Part shown: positions 49,563-64,000 of the stretch, piece after piece
How positions within the stretch are numbered: position 1 is the stretch's first letter
Layout of the letters: every line of letters begins with the position of its first letter
Source: Verrucomicrobiaceae bacterium
Lineage (GTDB): Bacteria > Verrucomicrobiota > Verrucomicrobiia > Verrucomicrobiales > Akkermansiaceae
Length of the DNA: 64,000 bases
Reading direction: 5' to 3'
Assembly: GCA_027486655.1 (NCBI GenBank)
Contig: JAIXOR010000058.1
Location: 1-64,000 of the forward strand
The notes under the pieces: model-generated
Database searches by the model: none
Seen by the model: only the letters and a program-made list of their open reading frames with translations
What the model was told of the DNA's origin: nothing
Made by a program: the position numbers and the translations under genes

Positions 49563-50303
49563 ATGAGACATCCGTTCGTTGCACCGGCCTGTGGAGTCAT
49601 TCTCGCGCTCGTCACATCCTGCGCCAGCGGGCCTCCTGCATCGGTATCGAGGACGCCGGACCTCGCCTTCCTCCCTGCAAAGGCGGAAAAAGGCCGCGTT
49701 TTCTCGATGTACAACCACCACGGCACCTCGATCCGCAGTGGCAACTGGACCTCCCGTTTCGATCTAACAGGGGTTTCCTGGAATGATCCGCGGACTGCCA
49801 CGGCCATCACCCGGCGGCATGTGGTCATGGCCGCTCATTTCATCCGGCCCACGGAGATTCCAGTGGTCTTCCAGGACGCCGCGGGCCAGAGGCATGTCCG
49901 CCACCTCACCCAGGTGAAGACGCTCACCCACGTGGGGGACATCGCCGTCGGCCGCCTGGATCAACCCCTGCCGGCGGGTGTGCGCCATTACCGGCTGGCC
50001 GGACCCCTGGACGCAGTGCCGATGCGGCTTGCCTTGGTCACCGATCAAAAGATGACGCTTTCCCTGCACCGCATCGACCGTGCGGCAGCCGGGCGTGTGA
50101 TTCTGGGATACGATCCTTCGATTGAGCGGATCTTCTGGCGCAACCTCGTCCCCGGAGACAGCGGACACCCGGCTTTTGTGATCGATGGTGGCGAGCTCAA
50201 ACTGCTCACCACATTCACCACGGGCGGCCCCGGAAGCGGGCCCTTTTACGGCGAGCCTGCCGTTTCCAGCGCGATCGCGGCAGCGATTGCCGCCATGCCC
50301 TGA
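49563..50303 (+). CDS. lipoprotein with trypsin-like serine protease fold
   Basis: 246 residues. The lipobox VTSC places lipidation at Cys20. A chymotrypsin-type triad can be read: His92 in HVVMAAHF, Asp126 in VGDIAVGRL and Ser200 in VPGDSGHPAFVI, with the GDSG motif intact. The length is about that of a single protease domain. A secreted, membrane-anchored protease or an inactive relative binding peptides is likely; the substrate is unknown. The gene stands between the divergent hydrolase and the alpha-2-macroglobulin gene. Confidence 0.75.
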   Translation: MRHPFVAPACGVILALVTSCASGPPASVSRTPDLAFLPAKAEKGRVFSMYNHHGTSIRSGNWTSRFDLTGVSWNDPRTATAITRRHVVMAAHFIRPTEIPVVFQDAAGQRHVRHLTQVKTLTHVGDIAVGRLDQPLPAGVRHYRLAGPLDAVPMRLALVTDQKMTLSLHRIDRAAAGRVILGYDPSIERIFWRNLVPGDSGHPAFVIDGGELKLLTTFTTGGPGSGPFYGEPAVSSAIAAAIAAMP

Positions 50304-50422
50304 ACGGGGAACCGGCGCGCTTTCCCGGTGCCTGGGAAACTTTTCATCGGCCGCGAAAGGATTTGAATGTCTTTTTGCGCGGATTCGTATATCCAGCCGG
50401 AACGGCCTCGTGCCGCATTTGT

Positions 50423-53400
50423 ATGAACTCAACCTCCCTCGCCTTCACGGCGTTTCTGGCCATCACCGTGGCCTCTTCCGCAGCCCCCAGACTTGTGGTC
50501 TCCACTCCCTCCCTGGTGCCTGAATCCAAGGTCGACCTCGTGCTCGACCTCCCCGTCATCGAAACTTCCGAGATCGGCAAAACCGTCGAAAACTCGTGGT
50601 TGGAGATCAGTCCCGCCCTGCCCGGCAAGCTGCGCTGGAAGGCACAGAACATCGCCGAATTCCTGCCCGAGAAGGCCCCGGCGATGGGCATGGAATACAG
50701 CTTCTCCATCCCCAGGAACCGCAAGCATCTCGACGGCAGCACGATTCCCGCGGGCAAGTTCACCACCGTCCGTTCGGAAGACTTCCGCATGGTGAACTGC
50801 AACCCCACCGAAAACCGCTGGTCCTCCGATTTTTCCCCATCCACCACCGGTTGGATGATGGTTTTCAACGATGAGGTGGACCCCGCCGCCGCCGCGGCCT
50901 TTGTGTCCTTTTCCTCCAAGTCCGGAAAACGGGTCGCCGCGAGACTTGAGCGCACGACCCGCGCGCAGTCCGGCTACTATGGCGGACAATACAAACCCTG
51001 GGCCGCCCGCTGGCCATCCACCCCGGAAGCTCCGGTCGATGCCAACGCCCCCGCGCCCCACGTGCTGACCGCCTATCCGGTCTCTCCCCTGCCACCGGAT
51101 GCCGGCTGGCAGATCTCCGTGCTCAAGGGCCTGCCCAACCTCTCCGCCAGCGCCCGCATCGTCGCCGACTCCCAGGTCGAGGTTGGCAAGATCGACCCCT
51201 TCGTGGTCGGAGACATCCGCGCCGTCACGGAAGTGAACGAGCCACGCAAGATCGTCATTTCCTTCAACCATCCGCTGCCCAAGACCTTGCCGGAAAACCT
51301 GCTTTCCGAGTGCCTCCTGATCTCACCCCGCCCGGAAAACCTCAAAGCCTCCGCCGATGGCCGCGAATTGGAAATCACCGGATCCCTCGCCGGGATCGAC
51401 AAGTATTCCGTCACCCTCAAGCCGCCCTTCACCTCGGCAGGCGGCCTCACCCTGGCCGATGGCAGGCAGAAGGACGTCACTTTCGAGCATCTCGAACCCG
51501 GCCTCGCCCTGCCTTCTGACAACCAGGCCCAACTCGCCAACGGCGGCCGCATCTATCAGATCGATACGGTCAACCTCACCCGAATCCACCTCCGCATCAA
51601 GAAACTCGGCGGCAACGACCTCATCCGCGCCTATCAGGGATACCGCAACTACACCGGATCCGGCCCCGACGGCAAATCCGTCTCGCCCACCGCTCCCTTG
51701 CCATGGCCACTCGTCGTCGGTGAGACCCTCGTCGAGAAGGTGATCGAGCTCGGCAATGGGGTGGACACCTCGAAGAAAATCACCCTTTCCTGGGATGAAC
51801 TGCTGCCCAAGGATCTCCGCAACGCCGCTCTGTTCGTCGATGTCACGGGCGATCCCCACCCGGACGCGGGCTCGGAACAACGCCGCAACGCCCAGGCTCT
51901 CGTCCAGCTCACCGACCTGGGACTCGCCTGGAAAATCACTGCGAAGGAGACCCTCGTTTACGCATTTTCCTGCACCACCGGATCCCCGATGCCCGGTGTG
52001 AAGGTCCAGATCTTCGGCGAGGACGCATCCGCTCTCGAATCCGCCACCACTGATGCCGCCGGCCTCGCACGCGTCCCGAAATCCGCCGCCGCCCGCCACC
52101 TGCTCGCCAGCTCGGGTCCGGACTCCTTCCTCACCGCATATGACAACTCCCTGCCCACCGTCGGCCTATGGCATTTCCCGGTGCGCCAGTCCTGGGGTAC
52201 TCCGCCCGAGTCCACACGCCAGGCCTTCCTGTTCACCGATCGCTCGCTTTACCGGCCCGGCGAGACCGTCCGCCTCAAAGGCATCCTGCGCTCGCTGCGC
52301 GGAAATGAAGTCGCCGCGGAAACCGCCACCTCCGCCCGCATCGTCATCCTCGATCCGACCGAGAAGGAAATCCTCAGCGAGCCGGTGACCCTCTCCGCCA
52401 ATGGTTCCTTCGATTTCACCCACAAGCTCGCCCCGAACACGGTTGGCACCCACTCGATCCGCCTCGAGTTCCCGGACGAGCTTGCGAAAATCAAACCCGA
52501 GGATGACCCGGATCAGGACTGGGAGGAACGCGAGCGCATCGAAATGAACGCCCGCTTCACCACCGAGCTGCGCGTCGAGGAATTCCGCCGCAATGCCTTC
52601 GAGATCGTCCAAAAGGTCGAGGAACCCGCCGCCGGCGCCGCCAAGGTCTCCGCCAGCCTCAGCGCGAAATACTATCAAGGCCAACCCGTCGCCGCCGGCG
52701 CGGTGAAATACTACGCCCGGATCTCCACCCGCAACCTCTACCCGGAACGCTTCCGCGATTTCCTCTTCGGCAACCACCGCTCCTACGATTGGGGATATTG
52801 GTATCACTACTTCGGCTATCAGGACAGCGACGGGGATTCCGATGGCCATTCGTCCAACCTCGAAGGCGAGATCCAGCTCGCCGCCGACGGCTCCGCCAAC
52901 ATCGCCATCGATGTCCCGCAATCGGATTTCCCCTCCCTGCGCGAGATCTCCGTGTCCTCGGAAGTCACCGATTCCAACCTCCAGACACTCACCGCCAGCT
53001 CATCCGCGCTGCTCCATCCATCGTCGGTTTACCTCGGGGTTTCGAGAATCGACCAGCTCGTCCGCGCCGGAAATGACCTGCCGCTCAAGATCGTGGCCAT
53101 CGATGCGGCGGAGAAACCATTCAACGCCGCCCTCAAGATCACCGCCACCCTCAGCCGCGAGGTGAACACCGCGGTCAAGACCCAGACCGATTCCGGCGCC
53201 ACCACCACCCGCAACGAGGTGACCGAGGAAACCGTGAGCACCTCCGAGTTCACGCTCGATCCGGCCGCATCCGCCAAGGACGGACAGACCTTCGTGGTCT
53301 CGCCGAAGGCCACCGGACTGCATTTCCTCACCCTGCGCGGCACCGATCCCCAAGGCAGGCCCTTCGCCACCGTCACGCGCTTCCACGCCTACGGCACCAA

Positions 53401-56158
53401 CGAATACCCATGGCTCTACGAGGACGGCATGCGCGTCAAACTCGTGGGCGAGAAGAAATCCTGGCAGCCCGGGGAAACCGCGCGCGTGCTCGTGCTTTCA
53501 CCCATCGAAGGCACCGCCCTCGTCACCGTGGAGCGCGAGAAGGTGCTCCGCTCCTTCCAGGTGGAACTCAAGGCGGACAACCCGGTGATCGAAGTCCCGC
53601 TCACCGACGAAGACGCGCCGAACGCCTACGTCTCGATCCTCATCGTCAAAGGAGCCAAGGACTCCGCCCGCACCCACAAGGAACCCCAGCTGCGCCTCGG
53701 ATACTGCGAGTTGCTCGTCGAAAACCGCAGGGACCGTCTCGCCGTCGCCCTGGGCACCCCGGCCGAAAGCTACCGGCCCGGTGATGAGGTCGTGGTCACC
53801 GGCACCGTCACCCAGGCCGATGGCAAACCCGCTGCCGGTGCCGAGGTCACGTTGTATGCCGAAGACGAGGGCACCCTCGCGGTCATGGGCTACGAAACGC
53901 CGAAGCCGATGGAGTTTTTCTATCAGCCACGCCTGCTGGCCGTGGACTCCGGCACCTCCTTCGAGTCCTTCATCCCCGAGGATCCGGAATCGCAGGACTT
54001 CCACAACAAAGGCTTCTTCGTCGGTGGTGGCGGCGATCTCAGCAAGCTCGCCGACCTGCTGCGCAAAAACTTCGACCCCTGCGCCACCTGGGCCCCGGTT
54101 CTCGTCACCGACGCCGCCGGCAAGTTCAGCCACGGTTTCAAACTCCCCGACACGCTCACCCGCTACCGCGTCATCGCCATCGCCCACCAGGGCGCCGCCC
54201 GCTTCGGGCATGCCGAGTCCGCCGTGGTCGCGAAAAAGGACCTGATGCTGGAACCCAAGGCCCCGCGCTTCGCCCACCAGACGGATACCATCCAGCCACA
54301 AGTGCTGGTCCAGAACGCCTCACGCTTCGCCGGCACTTGGAAAATCGAATACACCGCCCATGCCGCCACCGGCACACCGGTCTGCCGTGCACTCGGCGCG
54401 CCTTCGGAAACCATCAGCCTCGCCCCCGGAGCCTCCGCCAGCCTCACCTTCCCCAGCATCGCCGAGACCACCGGCGAGGCCGTCCTCGCCTGGACCGCCA
54501 CCCCGGTGTCCCTGCAGAACGGCACCCTCAACCCGGACCTCACCCGCCGCCTCTCGGATGCGGTCGAGTCCCGCTTCCAGGTGCAATACCCGATGCCCCT
54601 GCTCCGTCAGGTGAAGTTCGTGAAACTCGACTCTCCCGGCGTCGCCAGGGACCTGCTCAAGGACCTCGATGCCCGTCTGCTCGATGGCACCGGCTCGCTC
54701 GATCTCGAGTTTTCACGCACCCCGCTCACCGATGCCGCGGGTGCCGTGGACTACCTGCTGCAATACCCCTACGGCTGCGTCGAGCAGACCACCTCCTCGC
54801 TCATCCCCTGGTGCGCCGTGGGCGAGCTCAAGGACGTCATCCCCGCCTTCGCCAAACTCGATGAAAACAAGGTGCGCGACGCCATCCAGGCCGGGGCGAA
54901 CCGCCTCCTCAGCATGCAACTCGCCGACGGCTCCTTCGCCTACTGGCCGGGTGGCGGCGAGTCCGTGGACTGGGCCACCCCCTACGCCGGCATGGGCCTC
55001 GTCCTCGCCGAGTCCAAGGGCGCCAGCGTCCCGGAAACCGCCATCGACGCGCTCACCAACCACCTCATCGAGAGCCTTCGCGGCCTGGCCGAAACCAAGT
55101 CCGCCTACGCCTTGGAAACCCACGCCCGCACGCTGCTCGTCCTGGCCCTCGCGGAGAAAGCCCAGCCGGCCTATCAGAACGCCCTGATCGACCGCATCGG
55201 CGAACTCACACCCGCCGCCCGCTCGATGCTCGCCGCCGCCATCGCCATCGCCGATCCGGCCGCCAAGGTCACCGCCACCAAGGTGATGACCTCGAAAGCG
55301 CCCCTCCAACTCAAGGACGACGACTGGATGCCCTACTCCCCGGACCTCGCCCTCGAACTCATCGCCTGGACCGCCATCAACCCCGCAGGCCCCGAGGCCC
55401 TCAAGGCGCTCGACCGCATGCTCAACGATCGCAATCCCTACGGCCACTGGCGCACCACCTGGGTGAATGGCTGGTCGCTCGTCGCCATGGCCATGTTTGC
55501 CGAGCACGACAAGGACCGCAGCCTCTCCATCGCCCTTCAATTGGACACCCCGGACGGCACCCAGACCATCCCGCTCAACGAGACCGCTCCCACCGCCTCT
55601 CGCCATCTGGAACTCGGTCCCAACCTGAAACTGAACGTCACCAGCGACCACGCCGCCTTCGTCCGCGCCCGCCTCGCCTCCAAACCTCCGGTCGCCCCCA
55701 TGCAGCCGGTTGCCAAAAACGGATTGTCCATCGACCGCATCCACCACCTCGTCAAACCCGACGGCTCCACCGAACCGCTCAGCGAACCGAAACTCGGCGA
55801 CCTGATCCGCGTCACCCTGCGCGTCACCCTGCCCAAGGACGATACCCGCTACCTCGTCATCGAGGACCCGCTGCCCGCGGTGTTCGAGACCGTGAACAAC
55901 GACTTCGCCTCGCAGAAAAGCGCCCTCGGCATCCAGACCAGCGAGAACGACTGGAACGTAAGCCACAGCGAACTCCGCGGGGATCGCGCCGTGTTCTTCC
56001 TCGACCACGTCTGGCGCAAGGGCACCTACACCGTGTCCTACCTCGCCCGCTGCACCCTCGCCGGCCAGGCCACCGCCCCGCCCGCCAAGGTGGAATCGAT
56101 GTACGATCCGGAAAACTTCGCCCTCTCCGCCTCCCGCATCTTCACCGCCAAACCGTAA
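50423..56158 (+). CDS. bacterial alpha-2-macroglobulin (YfhM-type)
   Basis: 1911 residues from ATG 50423 with a Sec signal (MNSTSLAFTAFLAITVASSA) but no lipobox. Serial MG beta-sandwich domains fill the first 1100 residues or so (FLFTDRSLYRPGETVRLKG is the MG3/MG4-type signature; a second RPGD lies near 1110). The thioester motif CVEQ begins at Cys1452 inside YPYGCVEQTTSSLIPW, followed by the helical thioester domain and a C-terminal receptor-like domain (YTVSYLARCTLAGQ). In family members the thioester covalently traps attacking proteases in the periplasm. The frequent partner, penicillin-binding protein 1C, is not adjacent; a serine-protease-like lipoprotein gene lies upstream and glyS downstream. 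Confidence 0.93.
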   Translation: MNSTSLAFTAFLAITVASSAAPRLVVSTPSLVPESKVDLVLDLPVIETSEIGKTVENSWLEISPALPGKLRWKAQNIAEFLPEKAPAMGMEYSFSIPRNRKHLDGSTIPAGKFTTVRSEDFRMVNCNPTENRWSSDFSPSTTGWMMVFNDEVDPAAAAAFVSFSSKSGKRVAARLERTTRAQSGYYGGQYKPWAARWPSTPEAPVDANAPAPHVLTAYPVSPLPPDAGWQISVLKGLPNLSASARIVADSQVEVGKIDPFVVGDIRAVTEVNEPRKIVISFNHPLPKTLPENLLSECLLISPRPENLKASADGRELEITGSLAGIDKYSVTLKPPFTSAGGLTLADGRQKDVTFEHLEPGLALPSDNQAQLANGGRIYQIDTVNLTRIHLRIKKLGGNDLIRAYQGYRNYTGSGPDGKSVSPTAPLPWPLVVGETLVEKVIELGNGVDTSKKITLSWDELLPKDLRNAALFVDVTGDPHPDAGSEQRRNAQALVQLTDLGLAWKITAKETLVYAFSCTTGSPMPGVKVQIFGEDASALESATTDAAGLARVPKSAAARHLLASSGPDSFLTAYDNSLPTVGLWHFPVRQSWGTPPESTRQAFLFTDRSLYRPGETVRLKGILRSLRGNEVAAETATSARIVILDPTEKEILSEPVTLSANGSFDFTHKLAPNTVGTHSIRLEFPDELAKIKPEDDPDQDWEERERIEMNARFTTELRVEEFRRNAFEIVQKVEEPAAGAAKVSASLSAKYYQGQPVAAGAVKYYARISTRNLYPERFRDFLFGNHRSYDWGYWYHYFGYQDSDGDSDGHSSNLEGEIQLAADGSANIAIDVPQSDFPSLREISVSSEVTDSNLQTLTASSSALLHPSSVYLGVSRIDQLVRAGNDLPLKIVAIDAAEKPFNAALKITATLSREVNTAVKTQTDSGATTTRNEVTEETVSTSEFTLDPAASAKDGQTFVVSPKATGLHFLTLRGTDPQGRPFATVTRFHAYGTNEYPWLYEDGMRVKLVGEKKSWQPGETARVLVLSPIEGTALVTVEREKVLRSFQVELKADNPVIEVPLTDEDAPNAYVSILIVKGAKDSARTHKEPQLRLGYCELLVENRRDRLAVALGTPAESYRPGDEVVVTGTVTQADGKPAAGAEVTLYAEDEGTLAVMGYETPKPMEFFYQPRLLAVDSGTSFESFIPEDPESQDFHNKGFFVGGGGDLSKLADLLRKNFDPCATWAPVLVTDAAGKFSHGFKLPDTLTRYRVIAIAHQGAARFGHAESAVVAKKDLMLEPKAPRFAHQTDTIQPQVLVQNASRFAGTWKIEYTAHAATGTPVCRALGAPSETISLAPGASASLTFPSIAETTGEAVLAWTATPVSLQNGTLNPDLTRRLSDAVESRFQVQYPMPLLRQVKFVKLDSPGVARDLLKDLDARLLDGTGSLDLEFSRTPLTDAAGAVDYLLQYPYGCVEQTTSSLIPWCAVGELKDVIPAFAKLDENKVRDAIQAGANRLLSMQLADGSFAYWPGGGESVDWATPYAGMGLVLAESKGASVPETAIDALTNHLIESLRGLAETKSAYALETHARTLLVLALAEKAQPAYQNALIDRIGELTPAARSMLAAAIAIADPAAKVTATKVMTSKAPLQLKDDDWMPYSPDLALELIAWTAINPAGPEALKALDRMLNDRNPYGHWRTTWVNGWSLVAMAMFAEHDKDRSLSIALQLDTPDGTQTIPLNETAPTASRHLELGPNLKLNVTSDHAAFVRARLASKPPVAPMQPVAKNGLSIDRIHHLVKPDGSTEPLSEPKLGDLIRVTLRVTLPKDDTRYLVIEDPLPAVFETVNNDFASQKSALGIQTSENDWNVSHSELRGDRAVFFLDHVWRKGTYTVSYLARCTLAGQATAPPAKVESMYDPENFALSASRIFTAKP

Positions 56159-56448
56159 GCCCCGCGCACAAGCCCTCTCCCCATCCACGCAAAAAACCGG
56201 AGGAAACCGGAGCACTTGGGGGGAGAGGCTTCGGGTTCCGCCGGCTTTGCAAATCGGGGGGAGGATTTGTGAGGTCGAGGGGGGTGTTTCCGCAAACTCC
56301 CTCGGGGGGCAGGCAGCTCGCGGCGACGGAGAAAGGTGTATCCCATTTCCGGCCACTCGGAAACCCCGTGATCGCGTAGGACCGGCACAATCCTGTCTTG
56401 CCCCGCGCCGCAGTGCCTGCTTCCATCCGCGCCCCAACCCACCATCCC
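56159..56448. other. 290-base leader of glyS with four G6 tracts
   Basis: It contains no supported gene. Runs of six G occur at 56218-56223, 56256-56261, 56279-56284 and 56304-56309 on the plus strand, i.e. in the 5' region of the glycyl-tRNA synthetase transcript. The arms AAATC/GATTT flank the second run. No T-box stem or specifier loop could be built with confidence. The glyS promoter must lie here or inside the upstream gene. Confidence 0.4.
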
Positions 56449-58014
56449 ATGGCCAACAAAGACGTCACCGATCCCGCCCGCATGGAGAAAATCGTCTCCC
56501 TTTGCAAACGCCGCGGCTTCATCTTCCAAGCGGGCGAACTCTACGGCGGCCTCAACGGCGTCTGGGACTACGGCCCGCTCGGCGCCGAGCTGAAACGCAA
56601 CCTCAAGGACTACTGGTGGCGCAAGACCGTCCAGGAACGCGACGACGTGCTCGGCATGGACGGCTCCATCCTCACCATGGAACAGGTCCTCGTCTCCTCC
56701 GGCCACGTCGGCGGATTCAGCGATCCGATGTGCGATTGCCTGCTCTCGAAATCCCGCCTCCGCGCCGATCAGATTCCCGCGCAGGATGGCATCGCCGTGT
56801 GGTTCTCCGGGGCGAAACACGAAGCATCCGGCTGGAGCGTTGAGCGGGAGTTCGCCGTGCTCGCCGCCTCCGAGGACAAGATCGGCGAGGCTCACAAGAC
56901 CGCGAAGAAATACTACTCCGAGTTTCTCTCTAACAAACAGATCTCTCCGAAGGAACTGGAGGTCACCGAGACCCGCCGCGAGGCCGTGACCGGCACCACG
57001 CGCTTCAATCCGGAAAACGGATCGCTGCTCACCGAGCCCCGCCAGTTCAACCTGATGCTCCAGACAAACTTCGGCGCGACCGGCGAGCAGATCGCCTACC
57101 TCCGCCCGGAGACCGCGCAATCGATCTTCGTGCAATACAAGAACGTGCTCGATTCCAACCGCATCAAGCTGCCCTTCGGCATCGCGCAGATCGGCAAGTC
57201 CTTCCGCAACGAGATCAACCCGCGCAACTTCACCTTCCGCTCCCGCGAGTTCGAGCAAATGGAGATCGAATACTTCTGCCACCCGGACGACGGCCTGCGC
57301 CTCACCGATGAGTGGTTGGAAACCCGCCTCTCGTTCTACGACGAGATCGGCATCCCGCGCACCAAGCTCCACATCAACGATATCCCGGACGGCGAACGCG
57401 CGTTCTACTCGAAGAAGACCTACGACATCGAATACGAATTCCCCTTCGGCGTGCAGGAACTCGAAGGCGTGGCCTACCGCACCGACTACGACCTCGGCGT
57501 CCACCAGAAGGGCGCGAACAAGCCGCTCGAATACTTCGACGAGGAAACCAAACAACGCTTCCTCCCCCACGTCGTGGAGCCCTCCGCCGGTTGCGACCGC
57601 ACCGTGCTCGCACTCATCTGCGAGGCTTACGACGAGGAAACCCTCACCGATGAAAAGGGCAAGGCCGACGTCCGCGAGGTGCTGCGCTTCAAACCCGCCC
57701 TCGCCCCGGTCAAAGCCGGTATCTTCCCGCTGCTGAAGAAGAACGAAGAGCAGGTGAAAATCGCCCGCGATATCCAGAAGCAACTCCAGAAATGGATGAC
57801 CGTCTTCTACGACGACGGCGGCTCGGTCGGCAAACGCTACCGCCGCCAGGACGAGGCCGGCACGCCGTTCTGCATCACCATCGACTTCGACACCCTCGGC
57901 GAAAGCGGCGATGACCTCAAGGACACCGTCACCATCCGCCACCGCGATTCGATGGAGCAGGAACGCGTCAAAATCGACTCCCTCCTCGCCTGGCTGCTGG
58001 AGCGCGTGAGGTGA
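56449..58014 (+). CDS. glyS: glycyl-tRNA synthetase (alpha2 type, class II)
   Basis: 521 residues from ATG 56449. Single-chain dimeric glycyl-tRNA synthetase: CKRRGFIFQAGELYGGLNGVWDYGPLG at the N-terminus, class II motif 2 FRNEINPRNFTFRSREFEQMEIE, and motif 3 AGCDRTVLALICEAY before the anticodon-binding domain (LAPVKAGIFPLLKK onward). It charges tRNA-Gly. The leader upstream is unusually G-rich. The gene closes the core-genome part of the window; accessory genes begin about 140 bases later. Confidence 0.95.
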   Translation: MANKDVTDPARMEKIVSLCKRRGFIFQAGELYGGLNGVWDYGPLGAELKRNLKDYWWRKTVQERDDVLGMDGSILTMEQVLVSSGHVGGFSDPMCDCLLSKSRLRADQIPAQDGIAVWFSGAKHEASGWSVEREFAVLAASEDKIGEAHKTAKKYYSEFLSNKQISPKELEVTETRREAVTGTTRFNPENGSLLTEPRQFNLMLQTNFGATGEQIAYLRPETAQSIFVQYKNVLDSNRIKLPFGIAQIGKSFRNEINPRNFTFRSREFEQMEIEYFCHPDDGLRLTDEWLETRLSFYDEIGIPRTKLHINDIPDGERAFYSKKTYDIEYEFPFGVQELEGVAYRTDYDLGVHQKGANKPLEYFDEETKQRFLPHVVEPSAGCDRTVLALICEAYDEETLTDEKGKADVREVLRFKPALAPVKAGIFPLLKKNEEQVKIARDIQKQLQKWMTVFYDDGGSVGKRYRRQDEAGTPFCITIDFDTLGESGDDLKDTVTIRHRDSMEQERVKIDSLLAWLLERVR

Positions 58015-58155
58015 GACTTCACCCATTTCCATCACAGATGGCTTTCCAAATCCCGCCGAAACTCCAGAGGCGCGGGTTTGGGGTTGATGCACACGGGTGG
58101 AATCCCAAGCATGTTCAGCGAAGTCTTGAATACACCCAGGCTCCCACTGATCGCC

Positions 58156-58500
58156 ATGCCAGCCAGGAAATCCGCCAAAAAGAAAAAGCCCGCCGCGATG
58201 CCCGTCCCCACCACGGACTGGCGCACCACCGACGAGCAGGAAATCCTCCGTCGCGTTGAAAGGGCACGCCAGGAAAAGCACTTTATTGCCCCGCTCGGCG
58301 ACACGCTGCGCATCGAGCGGAATCTCAGGAAGATCCCCTCCAAGCTCCGCCCGCTCTTCGACATCGATGGCATCCTTTGGCCGCACACGGATCTGGACGA
58401 GGTCCATCAGAAAGCCGCAGAAAAAGCGCTGGAGGAAGTGGAGGGGATTGAATCTGGGAGATTCCACCAGCACGACTTGGTTCCAACTCATGCCAAATGA
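58156..58500 (+). CDS. small hypothetical protein upstream of STAND NTPase
   Basis: 114 residues from ATG 58156. A Lys/Ala/Pro-rich head (MPARKSAKKKKPAAMP) precedes a charged helical body (TTDEQEILRRVERARQEK, KLRPLFDIDGILW, EVHQKAAEKALEEVEGIE). No domain is recognised and there is no signal peptide or membrane segment. It ends 42 bases before the NTPase start in the same frame and direction, so co-transcription is likely. It could be a small partner or the remnant of another gene; which is not decidable here. Confidence 0.5.
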   Translation: MPARKSAKKKKPAAMPVPTTDWRTTDEQEILRRVERARQEKHFIAPLGDTLRIERNLRKIPSKLRPLFDIDGILWPHTDLDEVHQKAAEKALEEVEGIESGRFHQHDLVPTHAK

Positions 58501-58542
58501 TGATGGAGATCCGCTCTTGGATGGCTCATTCTTCAGCGCGAG

Positions 58543-61500
58543 ATGCCTCTCCACCCACATTCGGCGGTTCGATTTCCTTGGATTCGCTTCTGGTCTCCGC
58601 GTAAAACGCGAGATCACGGCACCTCAAGCGAGTTCCTCGAAGATCCGCTGGGTGAATTTGGAAAGCACGTTCATCCACATGCCGCTGTACTCGCAGACAT
58701 CACACCGGATACCGGACTTCTGGTGCTCTGTGGGGAACCTGGTTTGGGCAAAACCACAGAATTGGAACTGTTGCGTGAGCGGCACGCGGCGTGTGCGAGC
58801 GGGAAAGAAAGGTTAATCCACCTCAAGGCCCGCGAGTTCGAATCCTTCCCGGACCTGCAAAGCTATTTCGAAGACCATCCTGATTGGAAGGCTTGGCTAG
58901 CAGATGCATGCAGCCTTTCAGTTCTTCTCGACGGCTTGGATGAAGGCCTCATCCGGATGCCGACATTGGTGGCCAGACTCAGGAGTTTTCTGGAAACCAA
59001 ACCCGTGGAACGGTTGCAGCTTGTCCTTTCCTGCCGCTCTTTCGAATGGCCGGAGGCTGAGGGAGAGCAGCTCGCGTCATTGTGGGCGAAAAGGGAAAAC
59101 GCCGGGTTCATCTTCGAGCTTGAGCCTCTTCGCCGTGAGGATGCGCGGCTCGCGGCGGAACAAAGGGGGCACGTAGGGGACAAATTCCTCGAAGCGGTGC
59201 ACCGGGCGGATGTCGCTTCGCTCGCATCCCGACCCATCACTCTCTTTTTCCTGCTTGACGAGTTTCGCGGCGAGGAGTTTCAAGCAACCTCGCGGTCGCA
59301 GCTTTACAAGAATGGCTGTCGGCGACTGTGCGAGGAGAACAACCCGGAACGAGCCCGCCTTCTGCGCCGCTTTTCCCGCGAGGAATGTTCTACCGATGAA
59401 AAGGTCGATGCCGCAGGCAAGGTCGCGTGCGGCCTTCTAATCGGCGGCAAGAATTCCATTTGGTTTCCCACTTCGTCCCAATCACCAGCCGCTAGTGGCA
59501 ACGTTTGCCATTCCACGGATTTGATCGACAGCGGCATGTTGCGCGAAAACGCGGTTGAGCAAGCGCTGGGAACCGGAGTCTTCACGGCCTTTGGCAGGGA
59601 TTGCTTCGGATTCACCCACCAGACCTTCGCCGAATGTCTGGCAGGGCAAACGCTCTCTCAACTACCGCTGCCCCAGCTACGCAGCTTGTTGTGCGCCACC
59701 GATCCGGCAAGTGGTGCTGAGTATGTGATCCCTCAGCTTGTCGAACTCGCCGCATGGGTGGCGGGGGGGCATTCCGGCTTTTTCGCGCACCTGATCGATA
59801 TCGATCCGGGAGCGTTGCTACGCAGCGGGGTGGCGTTCGCCGAACCGGATCACAAGGCCAGACTTGTTCAACGAATTCTCGATCTCGCCGGGAAGAATCA
59901 GTTCTTCGACCAGTCGGAATACTGGCGTTTCTGGCGAGACCTCGATCACCCCGGACTTCCCCGCCAGTTGATCGACGCGCTGATAGCCCCCCAACCTCAC
60001 TTGATGCTCCGAAGGGTCGCCATTGAAATCGCCGAAGCATGTCGGCTGCAGGAACTCGTTCCGACGTTGTTTGACATCCTCAAATCGGAGCATGGCGAAC
60101 GCTATTTAAGGGATTCCGTCGCCCGTGCATTGTGTGCATCCATGCCGGACGACCGGTTGGTTGAACTTGAGCCTTTGGCTCGCGGAGAAGTCGGTCCCGA
60201 CCCGGATCAGTCGATCCTTGGCCACGCACTTCAACGACTCGTTCCCGAGCACTGGTCGGTTGCCGATGCCTTGCCATTCATCGGGCGGACAAGAAACCCC
60301 AATTACTTCGGCAGTTATTGGCGGGCCTTGGAGGAACTTCCCAAGCATCTGAATGATCGCGACATCCTCCCCGGACTCCGGGCGATCCAAGAATGGGAGG
60401 GCGGCTTTTCCGATACAAGTTATCGGAGGAAACTCTGCGTCGCCCTTCTGTTGCGAGGATTGGAGCAGATCGACAATCCCGCAGTTTGCGCCGAATTGGT
60501 GAAACTCTGGACTACGAAGTCCAGGAATTATCACACGTTCTTCAGGAAGGGCGACCGGAACGATTCGGACTTTGAAATGATCAACGACGAGCCGCGGCGC
60601 AAATGGATCGCTGCAATCATCAATTCATCCACCTCCGAACCGGATGAGCGAATTGATCTTCTCTCATGGGACACTTACCGCCTCATCAAGCCTGAAGATT
60701 TCGGCTGGATCCTCGAGAGCTTGTTTAGAGCGGAGGAAAAGGCAGCTCCCGCTTGGGCAAACGCAGTCCAGCGATTGCTCTGGAACGAGGAGATAAGAAT
60801 CACTTGGTGGGATGATTTCATTGCAGCCTACCGCCGATCCCCCGCACTTCAGGCTCACATGGTGTGGTTTGAGGAGGCTTCCGTCGATACGCCTGCCCGG
60901 AGAAAAGCCAAGGCGCACTGGCTCTGGCACGAGAGGCGTTACGAACGTGCGATGAAACGCCGCCGTAAGAAACAAGAGTTGCCCGACCCAAAGTCCGAGA
61001 TTGATGCGGCCATAGCCCTGATCTCCGGAGGTGAATCATGGGTATTCATCAATCTCTGCTGGGCGCTTTCATTAAATGAGGAGGGTTATCGCTACGGTTA
61101 TCTCAAGCACGACATAACCAGCTATCCTGAATGGGAAAACATCACCGCCGAGCAAAAGATGTTTTTTTACAATGCCGCGCGTCGGTTTCTCTTGGAACGC
61201 TCGGACGGGTGGGCCGAAATCGGTAAAGAAACAAACTATTTCAGGCCGGGGATTGTCGCCATCTGGTTGCTTCGTGAAGAGATCGAATCCGATGAGGAGT
61301 TGCGAAGCGCCGTTGCCGGAAAGTGGATCCAGGCGATTCTCGGGACATGGGACTCATCCTCCGATCATGCGAAAGACCTTTTCGCCTTGGCCTACAGGAT
61401 CAACCCCTCGCAGACCATCCACGGTTGGATCCGGGAGATTTGGCGGGACAGCGAGCGGCATGGACACCCTTTTGCGATTCGAAGGGCGGAAACTTGCTTC

Positions 61501-62757
61501 GACGACACGCTCGCGGGGGAACTCATCGAACTCATCAAGACACTCAAAGATCCCAAGTCCGTGAGGATGGCGATTTATGAGTTGAAGGGCTTCGACAAAC
61601 GTTTAGCCGGAGAGCTGGCGGCATACCTTTTGCAACGTGAAACCCGCGCCCGAATTACTAACGGGAGAATGGTGGAGGCATTGGTTATCGCCGGACTTGG
61701 GACCGGGTTTCGACAGGTCTGGAGGTTGGCCTTTCCGATTCTCAGCTCGCAACCTGAGCTGACCAAACGGGTCATGCTGTCGACGGCAAGGGATGGGGAC
61801 TCTCGGAACACGGATCTTTGCGAGGATTTGACCGAGGACGAAGTCGCTGATTTTTACCTGCTGCTCTGCCGGGTCTTCCCCCACTCGGAAGACCCTGAAG
61901 AAGAATCAGGATGGGTAAGCCCTCGGCAATCCATAACCCATTTCCGCAGCGCAGTCCTGGGAACACTCGGCAGCCGAAGCACTTTGGCCGCAGTCGCCCA
62001 ATTCAATCGACTCGCGAAGGCCCTCCCTGATCAAGCCACATGGCTGCTCTACCGTTCCCAACAAACCTTGAGTGTAGTGCGTCGCAACGAATGGCGACCC
62101 TTCCCCTTGCACGACCTAGCGACGGTTCTCTCGAATGATCGCAAACGGCTCATCCGCGACAACGGCGATCTCTTGAATCTGGTCATGGAGTCATTGGAAA
62201 AGCTGCAGTGGCACCTGAAGGAAACCACTCTTCCGGCTGTGGAAGATCTTTGGCAATGGGAGGGAGCGGGATTGAAAAGGAAGAACTTCCGCCACAAGGA
62301 CGAAGAGGCAGTTTCAGACTACGTGGCCCGATGGTTGCGCGACCGGATTGGGCCCGATTCGAAAGTGGTGGTAAACCGGGAGGTGCAACCACGCCGCGGA
62401 CAAAGGACGGACATCCTCGTGGAAGCTTGGAGCGATTCACCCGGCGGCCGAGGCCGGCAAGAGGTTCCGCTGAGTGTCACCATCGAAGTGAAAGGCTGTT
62501 GGAACAGGGAAATCAGGACGGGAGCCGAAAACCAGTTGCTCGAAGTTTACTTGCGGCCATTTGGTCGAACACACGGGATCTTTCTCGTGGCGTGGTTTCA
62601 CTGCCCCGGCCATGCGAAACTCGATTCGAATCAAACGACTGAGTTGAAGCACGAGGCTATCACTGATGCAAAGGAGGCTGTTGCCGCTTATGTGAAGCCT
62701 GCTCAGATCTCTGGATTCACGATCACACCTTTCGTCCTCGATTGCAGGCTGTCATAG
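58543..62757 (+). CDS. NACHT/STAND-like NTPase with C-terminal PD-(D/E)XK nuclease-like domain
   Basis: 1404 residues, no membrane segment. An N-terminal strand typical before NACHT modules (WSPRKTRD, then SSEFLEDPLG) leads into the NTPase: Walker A GEPGLGKTT (64-72), Walker B VLLDGLDEG with Asp130/Asp133/Glu134, and a sensor LVLSCRSFEWP with Arg165. The motif FTHQTFAECLAGQTL (near 355-370) matches the F-H-Q-F-E-Y-L-A-A helix of NACHT-associated winged-helix regions. About 850 residues of helical, probably HEAT-like repeats follow. The C-terminal 140 residues form a nuclease-like core: EEAVSDYVARWL, then Asp1290 (RTDILVEAW) and Glu1315-V-Lys1317 (IEVKG), the D...ExK order of PD-(D/E)XK enzymes. 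Bacterial STAND proteins commonly sense phage and activate an effector; here the nuclease would be the effector. Subtype not assignable. Confidence 0.82.
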   Translation: MPLHPHSAVRFPWIRFWSPRKTRDHGTSSEFLEDPLGEFGKHVHPHAAVLADITPDTGLLVLCGEPGLGKTTELELLRERHAACASGKERLIHLKAREFESFPDLQSYFEDHPDWKAWLADACSLSVLLDGLDEGLIRMPTLVARLRSFLETKPVERLQLVLSCRSFEWPEAEGEQLASLWAKRENAGFIFELEPLRREDARLAAEQRGHVGDKFLEAVHRADVASLASRPITLFFLLDEFRGEEFQATSRSQLYKNGCRRLCEENNPERARLLRRFSREECSTDEKVDAAGKVACGLLIGGKNSIWFPTSSQSPAASGNVCHSTDLIDSGMLRENAVEQALGTGVFTAFGRDCFGFTHQTFAECLAGQTLSQLPLPQLRSLLCATDPASGAEYVIPQLVELAAWVAGGHSGFFAHLIDIDPGALLRSGVAFAEPDHKARLVQRILDLAGKNQFFDQSEYWRFWRDLDHPGLPRQLIDALIAPQPHLMLRRVAIEIAEACRLQELVPTLFDILKSEHGERYLRDSVARALCASMPDDRLVELEPLARGEVGPDPDQSILGHALQRLVPEHWSVADALPFIGRTRNPNYFGSYWRALEELPKHLNDRDILPGLRAIQEWEGGFSDTSYRRKLCVALLLRGLEQIDNPAVCAELVKLWTTKSRNYHTFFRKGDRNDSDFEMINDEPRRKWIAAIINSSTSEPDERIDLLSWDTYRLIKPEDFGWILESLFRAEEKAAPAWANAVQRLLWNEEIRITWWDDFIAAYRRSPALQAHMVWFEEASVDTPARRKAKAHWLWHERRYERAMKRRRKKQELPDPKSEIDAAIALISGGESWVFINLCWALSLNEEGYRYGYLKHDITSYPEWENITAEQKMFFYNAARRFLLERSDGWAEIGKETNYFRPGIVAIWLLREEIESDEELRSAVAGKWIQAILGTWDSSSDHAKDLFALAYRINPSQTIHGWIREIWRDSERHGHPFAIRRAETCFDDTLAGELIELIKTLKDPKSVRMAIYELKGFDKRLAGELAAYLLQRETRARITNGRMVEALVIAGLGTGFRQVWRLAFPILSSQPELTKRVMLSTARDGDSRNTDLCEDLTEDEVADFYLLLCRVFPHSEDPEEESGWVSPRQSITHFRSAVLGTLGSRSTLAAVAQFNRLAKALPDQATWLLYRSQQTLSVVRRNEWRPFPLHDLATVLSNDRKRLIRDNGDLLNLVMESLEKLQWHLKETTLPAVEDLWQWEGAGLKRKNFRHKDEEAVSDYVARWLRDRIGPDSKVVVNREVQPRRGQRTDILVEAWSDSPGGRGRQEVPLSVTIEVKGCWNREIRTGAENQLLEVYLRPFGRTHGIFLVAWFHCPGHAKLDSNQTTELKHEAITDAKEAVAAYVKPAQISGFTITPFVLDCRLS

Positions 62758-63082
62758 AAAATTTCCAGCGTGGGCGTGCAAAAATGTTTTTGTGCAATGG
62801 ATTCGTTGCGCAATCGCCCGAGCGAAATTGCTTTTCCATAGGATCAACTCACCCCTTCACCAACTCATCCGCGTTGATGATCAAGTCGAAGTAATCCGAG
62901 CCTTCCACGGTGGGGGCGAGGTCGCTGGAGTGGATGAGGACGGTGCGGAACGAATGGCCAGGGGGGAGCTTGCGGCGGGCGACTTTATGTTTCACTTCAC
63001 CTCCAACCTCCCTGAAGCTTCCCAACCTCACCATAGCTGAGATTTTTATTGCTCGAACCCATAAATATGGGATTCTCTTTCC
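62758..63082. other. 325-base region between STAND NTPase and second VapBC pair
   Basis: The only ORF of note is on the minus strand (62849-63034, 61 residues, ending IINADELVKG). It contains HKVARRKLPPGHSFRTVLIH, which looks protein-like but is not recognised, and has no clear ribosome-binding site; it may be a decayed gene end. The VapBC operator palindrome (63058-63071) lies at the right edge. I see no RNA gene. Confidence 0.3.
63058..63071 (+). promoter_or_regulatory. palindromic operator of second VapBC pair
   Basis: CCCATA and TATGGG are perfect arms with a 2-base AA spacer (CCCATAAATATGGG), 11 bases upstream of the antitoxin ATG and within an AT-rich promoter-like patch. Ribbon-helix-helix antitoxins bind such short dyads to autoregulate their operon. 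Confidence 0.6.
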
Positions 63083-63346
63083 ATGAAAACCACTCTGGAC
63101 CTTCCCGATGAAACCTTCCGTCAGGCGAAGGCGAGGGCGGCGTTGCGCGGGATTCCGATGAGGCAGTTTGTGACTGAGGCATTGGAAGAGAAAATCCGGG
63201 GCGAATCGGCACCCGGCTCGCCCGCCCAGTCGCCGCCGTGGATGCGCGGCTTCGGGGCCTTGGCGGATCTGAGGGAGGAAAACCGTCGGCTCGAAGGCAT
63301 CATGGCGGTGGAATTCGGAAGAATCGAAGCGGAGGATGAGGCATGA
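63083..63346 (+). CDS. ribbon-helix-helix VapB-like antitoxin
   Basis: 87 residues. The N-terminus MKTTLDLPDETFRQAKARAA is a ribbon-helix-helix DNA-binding domain followed by RQFVTEALEEKI. The C-terminal part (WMRGFGALADLREENRRLEG) should bind the PIN toxin. It differs in type from the AbrB-like antitoxin of the first pair. Its last codons overlap the start of the toxin gene by four bases, and a perfect short palindrome lies directly upstream. Confidence 0.88.
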   Translation: MKTTLDLPDETFRQAKARAALRGIPMRQFVTEALEEKIRGESAPGSPAQSPPWMRGFGALADLREENRRLEGIMAVEFGRIEAEDEA

Positions 63347-63720
63347 TCCTAGACACGAACGCCCTCTCGGCCTGGGCGGATGGGAATCCCTCGTGTCGTC
63401 CCTTTTTCGAAGAAGCCCGGCGGATCGTGGTGCCCGTCATCGTCATCGGAGAATACCTCTACGGCATCCGGCAATCTCGTTTCCGCGACCGCTACGAATC
63501 CTGGCTCAGCTCCGTCATGCCTCATGTGGAAATGGCATCTGTCACACCCACGACCGCCGATCACTACGCATCACTCCGCCTATTGTTGAAATCCCAAGGC
63601 GCACCCATCCCCGCCAACGATCTCTGGATCGCCGCTGTTGTCCGGGAATACCGGCTGCCTTTGTTGAGCAACGACGCGCATTTTGATCTCTGCCCGGATT
63701 TGCAGCGTTTGTCGTTCTGA
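63343..63720 (+). CDS. VapC-like PIN-domain toxin
   Basis: 125 residues. PIN-domain acids are complete: Asp4 (MILDTNALSAW), Glu37 (VIVIGEYLYGI), Asp93 (IPANDLWIAAVV) and Asp111 (LLSNDAHFD). The sequence is close to the FitB/VapC type rather than to the toxin at 36505-36897. It should be an Mg-dependent RNase neutralised by the antitoxin directly upstream. With the STAND NTPase it makes this end of the window rich in defence- or maintenance-type genes. Confidence 0.9.
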   Translation: MILDTNALSAWADGNPSCRPFFEEARRIVVPVIVIGEYLYGIRQSRFRDRYESWLSSVMPHVEMASVTPTTADHYASLRLLLKSQGAPIPANDLWIAAVVREYRLPLLSNDAHFDLCPDLQRLSF

Positions 63721-63763
63721 ATGGATTTCGTGTCGCCTTGGCCACCACTACCTTCCGAGCCCT

Positions 63764-64000
63764 CTACTCTGGTTCCGCTTCTGGTGCTGCGAAGGGATTG
63801 CGATTTCCGACCACGACAATATGGGTGGCGTACGCTTCCTCTATCTTCGGGATGCCGCCGAGAGAGAAGCGGAGGCGGTGGCCTTTGTGCTGATAGACGG
63901 TGAGGGATGGCTTGAGGTTGAGGTCGAGAGCGTGGAAACGGAGCAATCGCAGGATCCGCCCTGCTTTGGTGAGATTGCAGCGGAAGAGGCGCTCAAGGAT
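63764..64000 (-). CDS. unrecognised protein, 5' end outside window
   Basis: The minus-strand frame is open from the right edge to a stop at 63764, giving the last 78 residues of a larger protein (CNLTKAGRILRLLRFHALDL, then SLTVYQHKGHRLRFSLGGIP, ending APEAEPE). There is no in-frame ATG inside the window. No domain is recognised. It converges on the VapC gene with a 43-base gap. Confidence 0.5.
   Translation of the reverse strand: MLERLFRCNLTKAGRILRLLRFHALDLNLKPSLTVYQHKGHRLRFSLGGIPKIEEAYATHIVVVGNRNPFAAPEAEPE

Follow-up and report, generated by a model that had tools for sequence, protein, structure and literature searches.

Can a bacterial NACHT protein carry its effector at the far end of the chain, behind the region proposed to act as sensor? 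This question is raised by a single gene in the DNA analysed here, the first 64,000 nucleotides of contig JAIXOR010000058.1 (hereafter the window) from the 5.3-Mb assembly, in 87 contigs, of a Verrucomicrobiaceae bacterium. The open reading frame (ORF) at 58543–62757 on the forward strand starts with ATG, runs without interruption and encodes 1404 amino acids; its translation and NCBIfam matches mark it as a NACHT-type STAND protein related to EruA and HyoA, with a C-terminal PD-(D/E)XK nuclease domain. An earlier note, made from the letters of the sequence, had proposed it as a candidate antiphage gene. We assign a probability of roughly 0.7 to the reading that it encodes a single-gene immune protein similar to nucleotide-binding leucine-rich-repeat receptors (NLRs) in reversed layout, in which alignments and structure models place the NACHT module in front, a HEAT-like array in the middle and a PD-(D/E)XK deoxyribonuclease (DNase) effector at the C-terminus.

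NACHT core, helical region and nuclease domain

Motifs, conservation and a structure model all support the assignment to the NACHT-type STAND NTPases made in the earlier note, and the three motifs named there were found in place: Walker A, GEPGLGKTT, at residues 64–72 (58732–58758); Walker B, SVLLDGLDE, here taken as residues 126–134 (58918–58944); and the helix FTHQTFAECLA at residues 357–367, part of the winged-helix motif FGFTHQTFAECLAG (residues 355–368; 59605–59646). The last follows the pattern FxH...E.LA, which we take to be typical of NACHT proteins. The combination of Walker A with an extended Walker B of the DxxDE type is that of the NACHT clade of STAND NTPases. In an alignment of 92 near-full-length homologues, which includes the window protein and leaves out partial and duplicate loci, G67, G69, K70, D130, D133, R165 (within SCRSFEW, residues 163–169) and H359 are invariant across the 92 sequences, and E134 is kept in 88 of them. 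As the Walker A motif begins at residue 64, the N-terminus is indeed only about 60 residues long; it contains a motif conserved across homologues, W.RFW ... L.DP (residues 12–35; 58576–58647), and no recognised effector domain.

An AlphaFold model of residues 1–700 (mean predicted local distance difference test score, pLDDT, 86.3; predicted template modelling score, pTM, 0.78) has the NLR-type succession of nucleotide-binding domain, helical domain 1, winged-helix domain and helical domain 2. Its best Foldseek matches are NLRP2 (1.8e-10) and NOD2 (5.9e-9), with NLRP7, NLRC4 and NLRP3 between 1.8e-10 and 7.3e-8, and VIA-align gave Z-scores of 18.1 for NLRC4 (368 residues at 8.1 Å), 16.9 for NLRP7 (374 residues at 6.0 Å), 15.5 for NLRP3 and 15.4 for NOD2. 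Pfam returned only matches below the cut-offs for the window protein (HEAT_2, AAA_22, AAA_16 and nSTAND3), and a phmmer search of the whole protein against the PDB yielded nothing useful.

The core is followed by a long helical, HEAT-like region, the proposed sensor, at residues 397–1190 (59731–62112). The long helical-repeat region described in the earlier note is supported by a Pfam HEAT_2 match at residues 476–545, below the cut-off, by matches of the family profile to designed alphaRep repeat proteins (down to 1.3e-8), whose repeats we take to be HEAT-like, and by helices that run to residue 700, the end of the modelled part. The alphaRep matches support HEAT-type repeats starting at about residue 415. 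In the 73 homologues that bear the full nuclease set, the information content is about 2.0–2.2 bits at NACHT residues 121–300 and 2.1–2.3 bits at residues 1201–1380, and it is lowest, at 1.1–1.6 bits, at residues 601–1140, as would be expected if a variable sensor were flanked by two conserved modules.

The proposed effector occupies residues 1195–1404 (62125–62754). Its AlphaFold2 model (pLDDT 88.1, pTM 0.87) has the element order alpha-beta-beta-beta-alpha-beta, D1290 lying on one strand (93–101 of the model) and E1315-V-K1317 on the next (116–124). With VIA-align, the first four ranks are BamHI entries (best Z 9.1, 156 residues at 4.6 Å) and most of the next are other PD-(D/E)XK enzymes, among them EcoT38I (7.7), McrBC (7.6), Can2 (7.5), OkrAI (7.4) and, lower down, FokI (6.7) and NucC (6.1), while clearly unrelated proteins (Rep15-Rab3, Rho) appear at Z 5.4–5.8. 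The model thus places the domain in the PD-(D/E)XK fold, and the structural match by which the earlier note wanted its nuclease to be judged was obtained, weakly with Foldseek. A search of the nuclease profile against the PDB led nowhere. The D1290...E1315-V-K1317 core stands where it had been predicted; together with E1280 and Q1331 it forms a putative active site (62380–62535; E1280 at 62380, D1290 at 62410, E1315-V-K1317 at 62485–62493, Q1331 at 62533) that is jointly kept in 73 of the 92 homologues. Because the NACHT residues are kept in all homologues and the five nuclease residues jointly in this majority, the motif matches are not due to chance. Judged from the retained residues and the model, the domain is predicted to act as a nuclease.

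Exchange of the C-terminal domain

The remaining 19 of the 92 homologues, in which the full nuclease set is absent, end in three CHAT domains, one GT4 glycosyltransferase, one alpha/beta-hydrolase-like domain, five membrane helices, five short helical tails and four unclassed tails, proportions that are biased since species genomes were scanned with a Walker A pattern and a nuclease pattern and the best 80 of 199 relatives were kept. Two of the unclassed tails are short (loci L075 and L097) and two are cut by the contig end (L119 and L120); L118, classed among the membrane-helix tails, also stops at a contig edge. Pfam identified the tail of L019 as a GT4-conflict glycosyltransferase (4.9e-114) and those of L077 and L099 as CHAT (5.7e-12 and 5.0e-9); the hydrolase-like match in L107 (3.6e-5) is below the cut-off, and the tail of L093 was called CHAT from its 83.3% identity to that of L077 (cores 75.0% identical). 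The classing of tails as membrane-helix or helical was done by eye, and Pfam found nothing reliable in the four of these proteins that were scanned (L076, L098, L082 and L092).

That the C-terminus serves as a slot for exchangeable effectors is best supported by comparing the sequences of L077, which carries a CHAT domain, and L089, which carries a helical tail: their cores are 82.9% identical over 1190 aligned positions, whereas their tails share 19.1% over 115. On a tree of the core (92 rows, 88 with a tail label), the tail type changes at least nine times, or six times if scored as nuclease versus other; this was a quick tree with long branches flagged and no bootstraps.

Several observations on single members stand beside this. 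Short stretches rich in asparagine and glycine, such as INSTINGDQIQHNY, lie at or before the tail domain in L076, L082, L097, L098 and L109 and are reminiscent of bacterial amyloid signalling motifs; no motif matching them was found in the neighbouring ORFs of these five loci. A search in 15 loci with other tails for a tail motif common to a neighbouring ORF gave one marginal match (E 0.048). In L045 (451–1494, forward strand) a full core with nuclease tail follows an N-terminal extension of about 343 residues, if the first start codon is used, and Pfam matched this extension only with Cdc6_C at 0.044. The homologue in L114 (9117–13380, forward strand) lies in two overlapping frames of 1045 and 461 amino acids, due to a frameshift or a sequencing error.

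Relation to named families and known systems

The closest named proteins are EruA and HyoA, both labelled "NACHT domain-containing antiphage protein" in NCBIfam. The window protein matches NF058535 (antiphage_EruA) at 1.6e-71 with 241.9 bits, where the cut-off is 1000, and NF058534 (antiphage_HyoA) at 6.3e-42 with 143.4 bits, where the cut-off is 1200. Because both scores are far below the cut-offs, we place the window protein on a separate branch; the caution of the earlier note that the gene could belong to an already named subtype was apt, in that it is a distant relative of both. On the window gene the EruA model covers the core (model positions 19–765) and, separately, the nuclease (1047–1272), and the HyoA model likewise covers the core and the nuclease region (197–837 and 1138–1379). 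Among the 18 members of our first alignment, EruA matched all and HyoA 17. The EruA model matched in 11 of 59 relatives of the window's genome, none above the cut-off, and in 42 of 369 genomes of the class around a Coxiellaceae genome, two above the cut-off. Both of these end in the same E..D..ExK..Q nuclease tail. EruA shares with the window protein the short N-terminus, the NACHT module, the long helical region and the C-terminal nuclease in the same order; BLASTP against the above-cutoff L195 aligned 429 columns around the NACHT module at 22% identity and 131 columns in the nuclease at 31%. A search of an above-cutoff EruA sequence against the PDB and one of the DNA of the two above-cutoff members against E. 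coli genomes were uninformative.

A NACHT module and a PD-(D/E)XK DNase are also united in the antiphage proteins bNACHT25 and bNACHT32 of clade 6, but there, according to PMC12169576, the nuclease occupies the N-terminus and sensing falls to the C-terminus, as STAND proteins generally have N-terminal effectors and sense with the C-terminus. The earlier note, too, stated that bacterial STAND and NACHT defence proteins usually bear the effector at the N-terminus. The window protein, whose Walker A motif starts at residue 64 and whose nuclease occupies 1195–1404, departs from that layout. AVAST proteins have the effector at the N-terminus and the sensor at the C-terminus. They share the STAND fold, and Foldseek matched the N-terminal model to Avs4 (rank 16, 1.5e-6) and AVAST5 (rank 20, 2.0e-4); the top structural matches are animal NLRs instead, and the window protein matches no model of the PADLOC set, which presumably includes AVAST. 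Animal NLRs, which consist of an N-terminal signalling domain and a C-terminal leucine-rich-repeat sensor around the NACHT module, provide the closest solved folds of residues 1–700 (NLRC4, NLRP3 and NOD2), but at an identity of about 9–16% over the aligned parts. Finally, Kaur et al. 2021 (PMC8195603) described STAND proteins, NACHT ones among them, to which a GT4 domain is fused, often at the C-terminus, and predicted this domain to be the effector; L019 is such a protein, but the accessible text of that paper describes no family with one conserved NACHT core on which GT4, nuclease, CHAT and other domains interchange.

Thus, the reversed layout is already implied by EruA and HyoA, and C-terminal GT4 domains on STAND proteins including NACHT are already published (PMC8195603). 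A single NACHT core that occurs in many phyla with several interchanging kinds of C-terminal domain seems to be unreported in the open-access literature searched.

Distribution and probable acquisition

With the window protein as query, matches were found in 11 of 387 genomes of the phylum and 7 of 285 genomes of the class, the window's own counted in both; among these it was the sole match of its genus. In 36 further genomes of the genus searched with the EruA model, four had distant or partial matches. The closest relative, L035, is 57% identical over the full length and belongs to another family of the same order. More distant relatives occur in Bacteroidota, Nitrospirota, Cyanobacteriota, Bacillota, Acidobacteriota, Planctomycetota, Actinomycetota, Pseudomonadota, Myxococcota, Chloroflexota, Thermodesulfobacteriota, Campylobacterota and other phyla, and in an ANME-2 archaeal contig (L095) the frame has 925 residues and no tail. 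In a check of 20 genomes, each held one match. Among 72,556 plasmid records 16 match, five of them covering 80% or more of the protein's length, and 11 of the plasmids are predicted to be conjugative; the matching proteins are annotated as hypothetical protein (10) or glycosyltransferase (5), or have no annotation (1). None of 50,697 phage records matches, and a phage-borne origin is therefore unsupported, though five IMG/VR contigs match, at least two of them over nearly the full length (L126 and L130). The earlier note had named occurrence mainly in conserved core-genome contexts as evidence against its proposal; the distribution is instead patchy and sometimes plasmid-borne.

The gene lies in the order alpha-2-macroglobulin gene, class II aminoacyl-tRNA synthetase gene (class II core by Pfam; we take it to be glyS), NACHT ORF and VapBC-like pair. 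Its GC content of 56.3% compares with 62.9% for window positions 1–58014, and its GC content at third codon positions (GC3) of 63.6% with 86.1% for glyS and 83.9% for the alpha-2-macroglobulin gene; these low values point to an acquired stretch. Low GC3, patchy distribution and plasmid-borne relatives are together consistent with an acquired defence gene. A clean empty site could not be demonstrated, as DNA similarity in 10 stretches from the same genus breaks off where glyS ends or close to that point. An Rfam search of 50000–64000 and a search for repeats around the NACHT gene found nothing telling.

The accessory stretch proposed in the earlier note is supported by base composition for the NACHT ORF itself, but the small upstream ORF at 58078–58500 (140 amino acids) probably does not belong to the acquired stretch: among the loci compared, its sole match outside the window's DNA is a 434-residue ORF (L153; 1.7e-21) that likewise lies downstream of glyS, in a congener. 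On the same grounds it was rejected as a partner of the NACHT gene. Next to it, glyS (56398–58014) aligns in two pieces, about 1–127 and 211–538, in at least 10 congeners; as these pieces are only about 50–60 nucleotides apart there, the synthetase encoded in the window seems to hold a variable extra stretch.

Neighbouring genes

The VapBC-like toxin-antitoxin pair directly downstream of the gene (63083–63720, forward strand) is a recurrent neighbour. The pair noted earlier is real as far as the toxin is concerned (VapC, 63343–63720, PIN 1.7e-14), and the antitoxin has only ribbon-helix-helix matches below the cut-off. A VapBC-like pair also lies directly downstream in L067, L068, L076, L091 and L109, all cyanobacterial loci with nuclease or membrane-helix tails, and in L046 an AbrB-like/Doc-like pair, recognised by eye, takes this place. 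In L035 (7805–12619, reverse strand) such a pair lies directly upstream and the PIN frame (1.2e-12) passes into the NACHT frame with no intervening stop codon, which is either a true N-terminal PIN fusion in a protein with a C-terminal nuclease or the result of a lost stop codon. Counted from Pfam batches in which the 25 commonest families were listed, PIN is the commonest family among immediate downstream genes, with 6 of 97 (two of the 97 being the window's), so VapBC was rejected as an obligate partner; among immediate upstream genes the commonest is AAA_22, with 4 of 94. One of these 94 has a Tc toxin TcA domain by Pfam. Five annotated plasmid regions each hold, within 12 kb, at least one gene for TIR, NACHT, helicase, AbiEi, VapC or integrase/transposase proteins.

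Proposed function and alternative explanations

Sequence comparisons and models support the NACHT fold, the nuclease fold, the active-site set, the conserved domain order, the exchange of tails and a lateral, partly plasmid-borne spread. By analogy, an antiphage role of the window protein is most likely, an assignment that follows mainly from the NCBIfam label of its relatives EruA and HyoA. We hypothesize that the resting protein would be inactive, with a nucleotide bound. A phage product, or a change in the host induced by infection, could bind the helical array, upon which the NACHT module would exchange its nucleotide and oligomerise. The tail nucleases clustered in this way could become active and cut DNA of the phage, the host or both, and this destruction of DNA would stop phage production.

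Several results weigh against this reading. Foldseek returned nothing for the nuclease model at E ≤ 0.001 (best PfoI, 1.5e-2), and the fold is clear only in the second-look aligner VIA-align, where 6 of 995 chains reach Z 8. The identity between the window protein and L035 shows no clear dip in the middle of the protein. The origin of the names EruA and HyoA was not found in the open-access literature searched and may exist elsewhere. The PADLOC check proposed earlier came out empty, with none of the 5027 models of PADLOC 2023 matching the window protein at E ≤ 1; named relatives were found in NCBIfam instead. The neighbourhood survey gave a divided answer. In favour of the reading, the 149 proteins encoded up to about 5.5 kb from 20 homologues matched 371 PADLOC models, compared with 28 models for 129 proteins in control stretches of the same genomes, a difference that is suggestive only, because models and not proteins were counted. 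The near matches listed include Gabija GajA, MkoA, AbiLi and PtuA, but 8 of the 25 commonest rows listed are GajA models, the controls hold defence matches too (ShosA, PDC-S03 and RTasPolA among those listed), and no neighbour family is frequent on either side of the gene, the families listed including ordinary genes.

Could the nuclease-like tail be a sensor that recognises DNA or RNA, with killing left to oligomerisation or to a partner such as VapC? A C-terminal sensor would agree with what the accessible text of PMC12169576 describes for bNACHT and other STAND proteins, a VapBC-like pair adjoins the gene in the window and in six other loci, and L035 has a PIN domain in frame at its N-terminus. 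The joint conservation of the five active-site residues and the replacement of the tail by other enzyme-type domains on a core that stays alike do not support a sensing tail, and the low share of PIN among downstream genes speaks against VapC as the partner; we consider this explanation unlikely. Slightly less probable still is a regulated nuclease for genome maintenance or for competition with plasmids and mobile elements. The occurrence of homologues in plasmid but not in phage records would suit such a role, as would the commonest listed neighbour Pfam families, which are largely not specific to defence; a patchy, laterally spread and tail-exchanging family is unlike housekeeping, however, and the named relatives are labelled antiphage. 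The low GC3 and the lack of a second match among the genomes drawn from the genus could also be read as signs of a degenerate or non-expressed acquired gene that has no present function. This is hardly credible, given the full-length frame, the intact core and nuclease residues and the full-length relative in another family of the order. We thus retain the reversed NLR-like protein with a C-terminal DNase effector as our explanation of the locus.

Implications for NACHT proteins

Bacterial NACHT proteins are related to the inflammasome receptors of animals. We tentatively extend the explanation given for the window protein, at somewhat less than even odds, to a widespread bacterial class of reversed NLR-like proteins with the NACHT module in front, the sensor in the middle and swappable, unrelated C-terminal effectors, which would comprise DNase, conflict-type glycosyltransferase, CHAT protease, hydrolase and membrane helix. 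With the effector slot at the far end, the activation signal would have to pass a long solenoid, unlike in inflammasomes, resistosomes and AVAST complexes. The comparison links EruA and HyoA to a far wider range of proteins that go unrecognised by PADLOC 2023, and L077 and L089 form a natural close pair with different tails that may serve to separate sensor from effector. If effectors are indeed exchanged at the back end throughout a broad family, the NACHT switch would not be tied to one polarity.

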